Of a DNA stretch of 64,000 nt, positions 46,518 through 51,206 are shown piece by piece. Origin of the DNA: a virus. The notes under the pieces are model-generated. The model saw nothing but the letters and a program-made list of their open reading frames with translations, was not told the origin of the DNA and searched no databases. Position 1 is the stretch's first letter; each line of letters starts with the position of its first letter. A program made the translations under genes and the position numbers. The stretch lies in IMG/VR virus record IMGVR_UViG_3300050821_009835, positions 1 to 64,000 of that record, one strand, 5' to 3'.

Positions 46518-49500
46518 ATGCCTGAAGAGCTTCTCCAATGTCCATTAGTCACTGAGTACACAAAACTCATTGGCTTGAATTCGGACATGTTAGAGAAGCT
46601 CTTCGTTTTGCGGCAGTGGAATATAGAAGACAAGACTAACCCTATTCCTTTTAACTGGCCCTCTCTTCTTCGTAAGGAACTCTCACCTGGCGTTCCATTA
46701 GACCTCCGTCAATACCAAATCCAGCAAGTACACCATCTCTGTCGTATGCCTCGCTTTATTGATGGGGATAGCGTGGGTTTGGGAAAAACTATCGAAGCTA
46801 TCGCGGCAGCAACTTGGATCAAGGAACGATTCCCGAAAGCTAAAATAGTTATCCTCGCGACGAAGTCAACAACATGGCAGTGGTTCGATGAAATTATCCG
46901 CTTCAGCTATCTGCAGCCCTATGTCATGCGAGACACCTACAAAGGCATTAGTGGGCATAATGCTCGTTTGGCTCAGATGATGGCATTTCTTGAAGACACT
47001 AGTAAAAAAGACGTAATGATCTGCAAGTACAGCAGCCTTATAGGAAAACGCCGAATTGTTACGGATAAAGATGGTGTTCAACATAAGGAATTGGTTTCGC
47101 AAGAAATCAAAGCCATGGCGACCATCTTTAAGCAACATGGTAATAACATCATCCTGATTACGGACGAATGTCAAAAATACAAAGGCCCAGGAACTTCCAT
47201 TCGCAAACTAGTCATGGCCTTAGCCCGATATGCTGGAAAAACCTGGGCATTGTCGGCTACCGTTATCAAAAACGATCTTTCTGAATTCTACAACATCGCT
47301 TATGCCATCGGTATTCGTCCTTTGGGAGACCTTGCAGATTTTGCTGAAAATCATTGCAACTTCTACGACCAACACATCGGGGGAGGGCGATTTATTCCCG
47401 TTCTTTCGGGCTATAAGAACGTTGCTAGGTTCAAAGAGCAGCTCCGCCCCTTTTTTCTTGGACGCTCTCAAAAGCAAGTGAAAGAGCCCCTCCCGCTACT
47501 CTCTACATTGTTTCACCCGGTTGAGTTAGATGCCAAGCAAACCAAGCTCTTGTTGGAAGATATTCCTAACGGGACCTTCCAACTCCCACCCGCAATTATC
47601 AAAGAAGCCGGGCAGATTTTTGAAAAAGAACGTGACCCCAACAACCAGATGACCATGTTGTCTGTTCAGCAATTAGTTGCCAATCATTGGGCATTGATTG
47701 ATCGCTATGATGAAAAAACTTTCCACACTACGACCTTGTCCCCTAAAGAAGAGGCTCTATTAGACATGCTGGATGGGGATTTTCGCGATGAAAAAGTCAT
47801 TGCTTTTGCTCAACCTCTCTCTGCTAAAATCCTCACTCCTACTGGATGGAAGACTATGGGCAAAATAAGGATCGGAGACGCTGTGGTAGACCCCGACGGC
47901 GGTGTGGGTTATGTGGAAGGAGTATATCCTCAAGGAGAGAAAGAAATTTTTCGGGTCACGACTAAGAGTCGAGCTTCTACTGAGGTTACTGGGGATCATC
48001 TGTGGTTGTATCAAACACCATATGGACGAGATCATGGAATTTGGAAAGTGCGTTCCACATATCAGATTCTAAAAAAAGGACTCCAAAGAATAGATAAAAC
48101 AGGGAGAGATAATCAATATCATAAGGCGTTCCTTCCTCTTCCTGGCCCCACAGAATTCTGTTCCCACACATTTTTACCAATTCCCCCTTACACATTGGGT
48201 GTGCTTTTAGGAGATGGTGACATCTCTAGCGGAGGTGTAACGTTTGGGGTGGAAGATGGAGAAATCGCAGATAGAGTAGGCAAGGAGTGTTTAGAAGGAA
48301 TCGAGCTTAGAAATCATGGCGGGCAAAGTGGTTCCCCGAAATGCATAGGTTATAGTTTGTCCACAACTGTCCCCACCAAAAAAGACCATAGAGGTTACAA
48401 TGTTGGTCAAAATAACCGCTATCTCAATTCGCTACGAGATCTTGGTCTTTGTCAGCCTTCTAACAAAAAATTTATTCCCCGAATTTATTTGCAGGCCTCC
48501 CTACAAGATAGGATAGAGCTATTGCGCGGCTATCTGGATACAGATGGCTGCTGTACAAAAGGAGGGTGTGTTTCTTCAGGATCGGTGTCTAAGCAGCTTT
48601 CCTTAGATGTAGCTGAATTAGTGCGCTCCTTGGGAGGTTTAGCTTATTTCAATGGGCCAATCCAGAACTTTTATAATCATCAAGGAATTAGAAAACAAGG
48701 ACAGGACAGTTGGGACCTTGTCGTCCAAGTTCCGTTTAATCCATTCTATTTAGAACGCAAAGCGCGACGATGGAAACCTGCGGCAAATCCTTTAAATCCA
48801 ATTCATACCATCGAATTAGTAGGCCAAACCGAAGTCCAATGCATAAAAGTGTCTACAAAACGATCCTTGTATATCACCGATGATTATATTGTGACACACA
48901 ATACTAAATATCGAAGTTGGATTGATCGTCTTGAATGGCTTACTAAGAATGGGCACTTTACAAAACGGGAATTCTTGCGCATTACTGGAGCTGAAGACGA
49001 GAAACAACGGAGAGTTTCTAAGGCGCTATTTCAAGATCCAGAATCTAAGCACGATCTGATTGTTCTCAACAGTGCGGGCATCGAAGGCATTAATCTCCAA
49101 CAAGCTGCACACATGCTCTGTCTTGATCTGCCCTGGTCTTGGGGCGACCTTATCCAGTTGGTGGGTCGGATGGTCCGCATGGCTTCTCCACATTCAGCGT
49201 GCACTCTTCATGTATTGATATCTAAGGGCACAATTGATGAATACACCGTAGAAACTTTAAAGGGCAAAAAGGGGGTCTTTGAGAAAATCCTTGGGGAATC
49301 TCATTCAGCAGGTATCTTAGATGATAGGCTGTTACACGACCTTGATTCTGGCATGGAACATGTAGGTTCAGATGCAGAATTTAAGTCTATGCTTCACGCT
49401 CATTGTCGCTCCGTAGGAATGAAAAGTTTTCTTGAAGGCGATTTGATTGCTGCTGCAAGTAATGAAGATTATAAGATGATTTTTGAAAAAGGTGGCAAAG

Positions 49501-49562
49501 CAAAACGTCGCAAGCGCCGTCTTCCAACTGACGAGGAGATAGATGCAAAATGGAATCTATGA
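46518..49562 (+). CDS. SNF2-type DNA helicase/translocase interrupted by an intein (1014 aa precursor)
   Basis: Superfamily 2 motifs: LRQYQIQQVHHL (Q-like), Walker A GDSVGLGKT (83-91), motif II DECQ (216-219), ALSAT (III), then after the intein NSAGIEGINLQQA (V) and QLVGRMVRMASP (VI). After removing the 364-aa intein (residues 432-795) the helicase is 650 aa. The junction falls at motif IV: ...KVIAFA / TKYRSWIDRLEWL. ATP-driven DNA remodelling in replication or repair is likely. No Shine-Dalgarno is evident. Confidence 0.93.
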   Translation: MPEELLQCPLVTEYTKLIGLNSDMLEKLFVLRQWNIEDKTNPIPFNWPSLLRKELSPGVPLDLRQYQIQQVHHLCRMPRFIDGDSVGLGKTIEAIAAATWIKERFPKAKIVILATKSTTWQWFDEIIRFSYLQPYVMRDTYKGISGHNARLAQMMAFLEDTSKKDVMICKYSSLIGKRRIVTDKDGVQHKELVSQEIKAMATIFKQHGNNIILITDECQKYKGPGTSIRKLVMALARYAGKTWALSATVIKNDLSEFYNIAYAIGIRPLGDLADFAENHCNFYDQHIGGGRFIPVLSGYKNVARFKEQLRPFFLGRSQKQVKEPLPLLSTLFHPVELDAKQTKLLLEDIPNGTFQLPPAIIKEAGQIFEKERDPNNQMTMLSVQQLVANHWALIDRYDEKTFHTTTLSPKEEALLDMLDGDFRDEKVIAFAQPLSAKILTPTGWKTMGKIRIGDAVVDPDGGVGYVEGVYPQGEKEIFRVTTKSRASTEVTGDHLWLYQTPYGRDHGIWKVRSTYQILKKGLQRIDKTGRDNQYHKAFLPLPGPTEFCSHTFLPIPPYTLGVLLGDGDISSGGVTFGVEDGEIADRVGKECLEGIELRNHGGQSGSPKCIGYSLSTTVPTKKDHRGYNVGQNNRYLNSLRDLGLCQPSNKKFIPRIYLQASLQDRIELLRGYLDTDGCCTKGGCVSSGSVSKQLSLDVAELVRSLGGLAYFNGPIQNFYNHQGIRKQGQDSWDLVVQVPFNPFYLERKARRWKPAANPLNPIHTIELVGQTEVQCIKVSTKRSLYITDDYIVTHNTKYRSWIDRLEWLTKNGHFTKREFLRITGAEDEKQRRVSKALFQDPESKHDLIVLNSAGIEGINLQQAAHMLCLDLPWSWGDLIQLVGRMVRMASPHSACTLHVLISKGTIDEYTVETLKGKKGVFEKILGESHSAGILDDRLLHDLDSGMEHVGSDAEFKSMLHAHCRSVGMKSFLEGDLIAAASNEDYKMIFEKGGKAKRRKRRLPTDEEIDAKWNL
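47811..48902 (+). mobile_element. Class 3-like intein with LAGLIDADG homing endonuclease (364 aa)
   Basis: Begins at Gln1 instead of Cys/Ser (QPLSAKILTPTGWKTMGKI) and ends THN followed by Thr as +1 residue. Block B reads T60-G-D-H63-L-W65; block F has C344 in VQCIKVS; block G is T362-H363-N364. Trp (B:12), Cys (F:4) and Thr (G:5) are the WCT triad of class 3 inteins, in which the block F Cys replaces Cys1. Two LAGLIDADG-like motifs (LGVLLGDGDI and LRGYLDTDGC) indicate a DOD homing nuclease. Confidence 0.88.
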
Positions 49563-49723: not shown

Positions 49724-49760
49724 CCCAAATAACAGGATCATTATGCCCCAGATAACAGGG
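49720..49760 (+). repeat. Imperfect 23-bp duplication of a gene start
   Basis: ATGACCCAAATAACAGG at 49720 and ATGCCCCAGATAACAGG at 49743 differ at two of the first 17 positions. The first copy opens only an 11-codon frame; the second starts the 102-aa gene. A tandem duplication of the translation start. Confidence 0.7.
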
Positions 49761-50087: not shown

Positions 50088-51206
50088 ATGGAGCAGAAAT
50101 ACACCTACAAGTTTCGTCTGTACCCAACAAAGGAACAGGAGATTCTCCTGAACAAGCACTTCGGGGCCGTGCGCTGGGTGTGGAACCATTTCCTTGAACG
50201 GAGGCAACGTTTCTATTTAGAAGCCAAAGAGAAGCAGCTTGCTAAGAAGCAACTGTATTATGCAGAGAATTGCTCAGAAGTTGTAAGTCTCAAGAAGTCC
50301 CCAGAAACTCAGTGGTTAAGAGAAGTGGGTGCTCAAAGCCTTCAACAATCGTTGAAAAATCTGGACGCAGCTTATAACAATTTCTTCAAAAAACGAGCCC
50401 AATTCCCTAAATTCAAATGCCGTCACGGGAAGAACACCTTTCGGGACCCACAAGGGGTAGAAGTAGACGACGAGAAACTATACATTGCTAAATTTTCTGA
50501 AGGTATAAAAACAGATAACCACAGAAAAGTGGAAGGGAGAATTAAGCACGCCACAGTAAGTAAGTCTAAATCAGGTAGATATTTTGCTGCGATTATGGTG
50601 GAGCGAGAAATAGCCGGGTTACCTTTAGCAAATTCTCAGATCGGTGTCGATCTAGGATTAACTGATCTGGTAGTAACATCTTCTGGTAGAAAGTACGGAC
50701 GATTAAAAATCCCCAAGAACCTACTTCGAATTCGTCAAAAAGCAATTTCACGAGCAAAGAAAGGCAGTCGAACTCGAGAGAAGGCTCGCTTGACCTTAGC
50801 TCGTTTGCACGAAAAAATTAACAATCGGAGAAGTGATTTCCTCCATAAGATTTCTCGAGAACTTATTGATGAGAACCAAGTCATAGTTTTAGAGAGTTTT
50901 AACGTTAAAGGCATGATGCAAAATCATCACTTGGCTGGGGCTATAGGTAACGCGGCTTGGTCGGATTTTGTCACTATGCTGAAATACAAAGCTGCATGGT
51001 ACGGAAGACAAATTGTTCAAATAGACCGCTGGTTTCCATCGTCGAAGACGTGTGGAAGCTGTGGGTATGTTTTGGAGAGTTTGCCCCTATCTGCCAGATC
51101 TTGGGTTTGTTTCAAATGTGGAAGCAAACATGACCGAGATATCAATGCAGCGAGTAATATACTGAAGCAGGGATTAAATCTGCTTTCCGTGGGAACCACG
51201 GTTTAG
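50088..51206 (+). CDS. tnpB: TnpB, RNA-guided nuclease of the IS200/IS605 (IS1341) type
   Basis: Full-length 372 aa. N-terminal TYKFRLYPTKEQEILL helix-turn region, RuvC catalytic residues D188 (GVDLGL), E269 (VLESFN) and D351 (HDRDINAA), and a zinc finger CGSCG ... CFKCG. Active TnpB uses an omega-RNA from its own 3' end to cut the empty donor site and keep the element. No tnpA is nearby, so it would need a partner in trans. A hairpin at its 3' end fits the omega-RNA/right-end region. Confidence 0.93.
   Translation: MEQKYTYKFRLYPTKEQEILLNKHFGAVRWVWNHFLERRQRFYLEAKEKQLAKKQLYYAENCSEVVSLKKSPETQWLREVGAQSLQQSLKNLDAAYNNFFKKRAQFPKFKCRHGKNTFRDPQGVEVDDEKLYIAKFSEGIKTDNHRKVEGRIKHATVSKSKSGRYFAAIMVEREIAGLPLANSQIGVDLGLTDLVVTSSGRKYGRLKIPKNLLRIRQKAISRAKKGSRTREKARLTLARLHEKINNRRSDFLHKISRELIDENQVIVLESFNVKGMMQNHHLAGAIGNAAWSDFVTMLKYKAAWYGRQIVQIDRWFPSSKTCGSCGYVLESLPLSARSWVCFKCGSKHDRDINAASNILKQGLNLLSVGTTV
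51187..51201 (+). ncRNA. 3' hairpin of tnpB, candidate omega-RNA / right-end structure
   Basis: CCGTGG-GAA-CCACGG, a perfect 6-bp stem ending just before the stop codon (51204-51206). In IS605 elements the omega-RNA covers the last part of tnpB plus the right end. The exact RNA limits and guide cannot be set here; the guide would begin after the right end, within about 51207-51250. Confidence 0.45.

Follow-up and report, generated by a model that had tools for sequence, protein, structure and literature searches.

Class 3 inteins are defined by the lack of an N-terminal nucleophile together with Trp at block B:12, Cys at F:4 and Thr at G:5, the WCT triad (PMC3196547, PMC7891396), and 1701 of them have been counted (PMC7891396). 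A class 3 intein in the Snf2 protein of Deinococcus radiodurans has been experimentally established (Brace et al. 2010, as cited in PMC3196547 and PMC7664689), so that an SNF2 host is not in itself new. An earlier note on the DNA described here called the class best known from phages and mycobacteria, a description that stands in part, with the count and the Deinococcus case set beside it. Inteins that occupy different positions in the same host protein often diverge strongly (PMC2814812), and because homing requires flanking homology the colonization of new sites is expected to be very rare (PMC1635734). A precedent for a change of site is the clade of the mycobacteriophage inteins TerL1-c and TerL1-e, which also holds DnaB-b (PMC5050341).

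The window analyzed here is a 64,000-nucleotide stretch of an IMG/VR virus record (IMGVR_UViG_3300050821_009835) whose full length, 264,912 bases, is inside the jumbo-phage size range. It contains an SNF2-family helicase gene with an intein (all coordinates are those of the window; a slash marks a junction):

46518..49562, + strand: host gene, phage SNF2-family helicase (Pfam PF00176/PF00271; PHROG 62 DNA helicase, E 3e-57)
46518..47807, + strand: N-extein, 430 aa, ending ...EKVIAF (alignment with intein-free orthologs)
47808..48902, + strand: class 3 intein, 365 aa, AQPLSAK...IVTHN (junctions from empty orthologs and 136 aligned relatives)
47808..47810, + strand: intein position 1, Ala, non-nucleophilic (Ala1 in 98/136 relatives)
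47811-47813, + strand: intein position 2, Gln, the Gln1 of the earlier note (Gln2 in 116/136 relatives)
48903..49559, + strand: C-extein, starting at Thr+1 (TKYRSWIDRLEWL), helicase C-terminal domain with motifs IV-VI (PF00271; INO80 alignment VLIY/SQ versus VIAF/TK)

The reading frame is uninterrupted from end to end and encodes a 1014 aa precursor, or 649 aa once spliced, with matches to PF00176 (E 6.5e-20) and PF00271 (E 1.4e-9) that bear out the proposal of an in-frame insert in an SNF2-type helicase. The nearest isolated relative, gp94 of Tunturiibacter phage Tunturi_5, is intein-free and shares 55.7% identity over residues 3-651. Alignment with intein-free orthologs shows that the P-loop (GLGK/T), motif Ia and motif II are each unoccupied in the window helicase, and no further inteins were found across the 264,912-base record. 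A lone TnpB/OrfB-type gene (50088-51206, + strand; PF01385, PF07282, PF12323) lies ~0.5 kb downstream of the intein-bearing gene, flanked by genes at 49743 and 51251. It looks like an insertion, since homologs of these two flanking genes are adjacent in Tunturi_5; they are near neighbors in related contigs, and no Rfam RNA family was matched near the TnpB/OrfB-type gene.

The precursor reads ...EKVIAF/AQPLSAKILTPTGW...CIKVSTKRSLYITDDYIVTHN/TKYRSWIDRLEWL..., and its left junction differs from the one first proposed. The intein had been placed at 47811-48902, with Gln at position 1; the end at 48902 stands, and the ortholog junctions move the start to 47808. In Tunturi_5 the intein-free helicase reads EKVIVY/TKSKSW across the junction, and all 25 distinct orthologs compared with the window gene, with inteins removed, have V/I/L-x-x-F/Y and then directly T/S (26 orthologs aligned). 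Because the empty orthologs lack an extra residue, excision of AQPLSAK...VTHN restores the ancestral reading exactly, whereas excision of QPLSAK...VTHN would leave one extra Ala in the helicase. A start at Gln, with that Ala staying in the mature protein, might be favored by the conserved Pro-Leu that follows Gln and by tblastn matches that start there if the query does, but we regard it as barely credible: a residue added between VIAF and T is seen in no empty ortholog, Ala1-Gln2 is the consensus across the 136 related inteins, 104 of which (~76%) sit directly after Gly-Lys, mostly at P-loops, and the spacing from Ala1 to Gly13-Trp14 matches that in the solved class 3 intein MchDnaB1. By these sequence comparisons the junction is one codon upstream of the earlier position and the first residue is Ala, the usual one in class 3. 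The Cys344 and Asn364 of the first numbering become Cys345 and Asn365, and the corrected residue 1 is not the Cys that the earlier note had named as counting against its assignment.

The residues that define the class are as follows:

47997..47999, + strand: His64, block B position 10 (invariant, 136/136 relatives)
48003..48005, + strand: Trp66, block B:12, W of WCT, two residues past His64 (134/136)
48840..48842, + strand: Cys345, block F:4, C of WCT, predicted first branch point (136/136)
48894..48902, + strand: Thr363-His364-Asn365, being the G:5 Thr (T of WCT), the penultimate His and the cyclizing Asn (each 136/136)

The earlier note had proposed an alignment with class 3 inteins, and in it the W, C and T of the triad are present in 134, 136 and 136 of the 136 related inteins. 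The junction alignment places no Cys, Ser or Thr at position 1, where the absence of Cys or Ser was anticipated and the residue proves to be Ala; the intein ends in HN and is followed by Thr, one of the +1 residues (Ser, Thr or Cys) of class 3, and the predicted Trp, Cys and Thr are all in place. With Ala1 and Cys345 it has neither the Cys1 or Ser1 of class 1 nor the absence of Cys at F:4 that marks class 2, and as judged from sequence it has every element of the class 3 definition. The homologs found group with the window intein and carry the WCT residues, in trees that had no class 1 outgroup.

Matches to the intein occur at 575 places in 559 phage records. With hundreds of homologs we have ruled out a chance or miscalled insert. 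Close relatives were recovered by alignment-based scans; single-sequence scans with the intein or the N-extein confirmed no close relative.

Between the splicing blocks lies a homing endonuclease domain, and both of the LAGLIDADG motifs reported earlier are present with their catalytic Asp residues kept:

48159..48767, + strand: LAGLIDADG homing endonuclease domain, intein residues 118-320, borders approximate (Pfam LAGLIDADG_3 slightly below cut-off; fold match to PI-SceI, TliVMA and I-DmoI)
48192..48218, + strand: LAGLIDADG motif 1, TLGVLLGDG, catalytic Asp136 (Asp in 129/136 relatives)
48468..48470, + strand: Lys221, likely the endonuclease block D lysine (Lys in 133/136)
48522..48548, + strand: LAGLIDADG motif 2, LRGYLDTDG, catalytic Asp246 (Asp in 134/136)

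An AlphaFold model of the intein (pLDDT 91.5, pTM 0.90) has an intein-plus-homing-endonuclease fold. Foldseek matches it over its whole length to the PI-SceI, TliVMA and PhoVMA inteins (E down to 4e-17 for PI-SceI/TliVMA), the splicing domain to the class 3 DnaB inteins 6RIY, 6RIX and 6BS8 (2.3-2.5 A over 88 columns for 6RIY and 6BS8), and the endonuclease domain to I-DmoI. These data bear on whether the element is instead class 2-like or an inactive remnant that has lost its first nucleophile, so that the protein goes unspliced and the helicase is dead. Position 1 does lack Cys or Ser, splicing here is predicted only, and the class 3 intein of Arthrobacter is a known pseudogene (PMC3196547); however, that pseudogene lacks Cys F:4 and His B:10, while in the window intein the WCT triad, both His residues and Asn365 are intact, the frame is open, the predicted fold is of high confidence, and the extein is conserved on both sides, SNF2 motifs included. 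We therefore consider decay of this kind very unlikely. The best explanation as a whole, in which we have strong confidence, is a complete class 3 LAGLIDADG intein that is predicted to home and has relatives at other sites of a jumbo-phage SNF2 helicase.

Splicing and DNA cutting by the window intein are both predicted, the former by the route taken from studied class 3 inteins (PMC7891396, PMC4031507). Cys345 would attack the Phe(-1)-Ala1 bond, with His64 and Thr363 helping, to form the first branched thioester; the N-extein would then be transferred to Thr+1, Asn365 would cyclize and release the intein, and an acyl shift would seal EKVIAF-TKYRSW. The endonuclease presumably cuts intein-free motif IV alleles in co-infecting phages, where repair would copy the intein in, and the candidate target in empty orthologs is ...gtcatcgtctac/accaagtac....

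Alignment places the intein in motif IV, after Phe430 and ahead of Thr431 (spliced numbering). The insertion point immediately precedes the conserved Ser/Thr and corresponds to the position between Y and S of INO80 VLIYSQ, which confirms the insertion site named in the earlier note. Among the orthologs found in 2.9 million viral contigs this site is filled in four, the window, L099, L102 and L103, and a DNA-pattern scan of viral contigs for the motif IV junction gave none beyond those already known (several loci are the same contig: L014 = L102 = L178 = L259; L103 = L177 = L276; L099 = L268; L015 = L115 = L179). No record of SNF2 motif IV as an intein site was found in the literature searched, and the site is precise, rare and apparently unrecorded. 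The motif IV inteins of the window and L102 share 62% identity and their host helicases 58%, so a recent transfer lacks support. Motif IV carriers are scattered in the helicase tree, requiring at least three gains or losses, and this patchy occupancy fits either homing with loss or repeated loss of vertically inherited inteins.

Other sites of the same helicase gene are occupied in orthologs. Class 3 inteins are present at the P-loop (GLGK/T) in L102, L103 and L116, at motif Ia (TTKST/T) in L115, and directly behind motif II (DECQKFK/S) in L116, such that L102 and L103 have two inteins at once (P-loop and motif IV), as does L116 (P-loop and motif II). The two-intein ORF of L116 (IMGVR_UViG_3300036766_000194) starts from 1530, and its second intein, DECQKFK/AQPLTSK...VTHN/SVGG, is divergent, with ~40% identity to the others and Ser at +1. 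A distant homologous helicase, the 1000 aa ORF of L007 (LR745208.1), carries a class 1-like intein with Cys1 (GLGK/CKPLDSL...NHN/TLEV), and the P-loop site of related phage helicases is therefore used by two intein classes.

The seven inteins of this helicase family make up a single clade in a maximum-likelihood tree of 49 rows (98/90; 99% of bootstraps), and the endonuclease-only tree recovers the same seven (95/90); with the splicing blocks alone the clade fails to resolve. When the tree is extended to 85 rows, L181, an intein at the P-loop of another SNF2 helicase, joins to give an eight-row clade (100/93), and the strict family clade without it has an AU p of 0.176 and appears in 2% of bootstraps. 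Exact monophyly is thus neither shown nor rejected. A quick tree of 120 rows unites the P-loop, Ia and IV inteins (SH-aLRT 98) and places the motif II intein, which is on a long branch, elsewhere. AU tests reject trees in which the family P-loop inteins are made to group with other P-loop inteins (p 0.018), and likewise trees in which the motif IV inteins are made to join them (p 0.021); these values are flattering since the groups were chosen after inspection of the tree.

In related phages the closest relatives of the window intein occupy at least two, and probably three, further positions in this helicase gene, and their membership in one small clade, with the motif II intein perhaps excepted, suggests that new sites were colonized, for the most part inside a single gene. 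The nearest inteins outside the family clade are all at P-loops, which makes the P-loop the likely starting site. The most likely course of events is that a class 3 intein at the P-loop reached the other sites by rare moves, largely within this helicase gene, and we give an even chance to the stronger statement that class 3 inteins can move within one gene, a single lineage having colonized the P-loop, Ia, IV and probably the position behind motif II. Ectopic cutting through a DNA target common to the four sites was considered and rejected: the sites share no similarity above that of other Thr/Ser-codon sites, and they reveal no path by which the moves could have taken place.

This lack of mutual similarity is also in line with separate origins, from other genes, of the inteins at the several sites, in which case their proximity in the tree would reflect sampling and no spread would have occurred within the gene. 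The position of L181 in or beside the clade agrees with such separate arrivals, and the intein scans took the best 80 loci per query. Against them, L181 is the only non-family member of the clade to emerge from two independent intein scans across 2.9 million viral contigs and a third across GTDB genomes, each limited to those 80 best loci per query; the endonuclease-only tree is concordant, and both splittings of the family were rejected by the AU tests. We find independent arrival possible yet rather doubtful, and spread largely within the gene remains our preferred reading.

Two further groups of class 3 inteins were encountered. Inteins with Pro1, often 400-415 aa, recur after ...GFLPG/ or GYLPG/ in a host that looks like PhoH, a candidate identification (L017, L021, L036, L045, L183-L185, L193, L194, L197, L198, L211, L212). 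Genomes of Opitutaceae and other Verrucomicrobia share one at the P-loop of a probable RecD-like helicase, GGPGTGK/TTILRA (L145, L148, L154, L155, L156, L160, L161, L164), which seems to have persisted for a long time within a single bacterial family.

This helicase family bears on the open question of how inteins come to occupy new sites. Related class 3 inteins in as many as four positions of one helicase depart from the usual rule that non-allelic inteins are distant, and the up to four filled sites with ~20 distinct empty alleles constitute a set on which site-jumping and change of endonuclease target can be tested. The window intein itself offers a further splicing element, at a rare site and flanked by Phe(-1) and Thr(+1), and the greater value is in the surrounding family pattern.

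The window intein is a canonical member of class 3, a class already known in SNF2 proteins from Deinococcus Snf2 and phage PhiPA3. The D. radiodurans intein, by its description in the citing papers, likewise belongs to class 3 and interrupts an SNF2-family helicase; the block F Cys branch, predicted for the window intein, was shown experimentally there. Its host gene is bacterial. Gp233 of Pseudomonas phage PhiPA3 (L176) is also a jumbo-phage SNF2 helicase with class 3 residues, and its intein is 34.6% identical to that of the window over the full intein, but it is inserted at the P-loop (AGTGK/AQPL...HN/TYMT) rather than motif IV. The mycobacterial DnaB class 3 inteins (MchDnaB1, 6RIX/6RIY; M. 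smegmatis, 6BS8) share the Ala1 spacing, WCT and HINT fold; their solved chains are ~125-146 residues without an endonuclease domain, and the host site is the DnaB P-loop. The haloarchaeal MCM/CDC21 a-d inteins (PMC10643990) occupy four sites of one helicase gene, with two often filled together, a likeness in site count and occupancy in what is an archaeal MCM helicase. TerL1-c and TerL1-e resemble the helicase family in that class 3 inteins from separate positions in a single phage gene belong to one clade (PMC5050341), but the host is a terminase and the sites are two.
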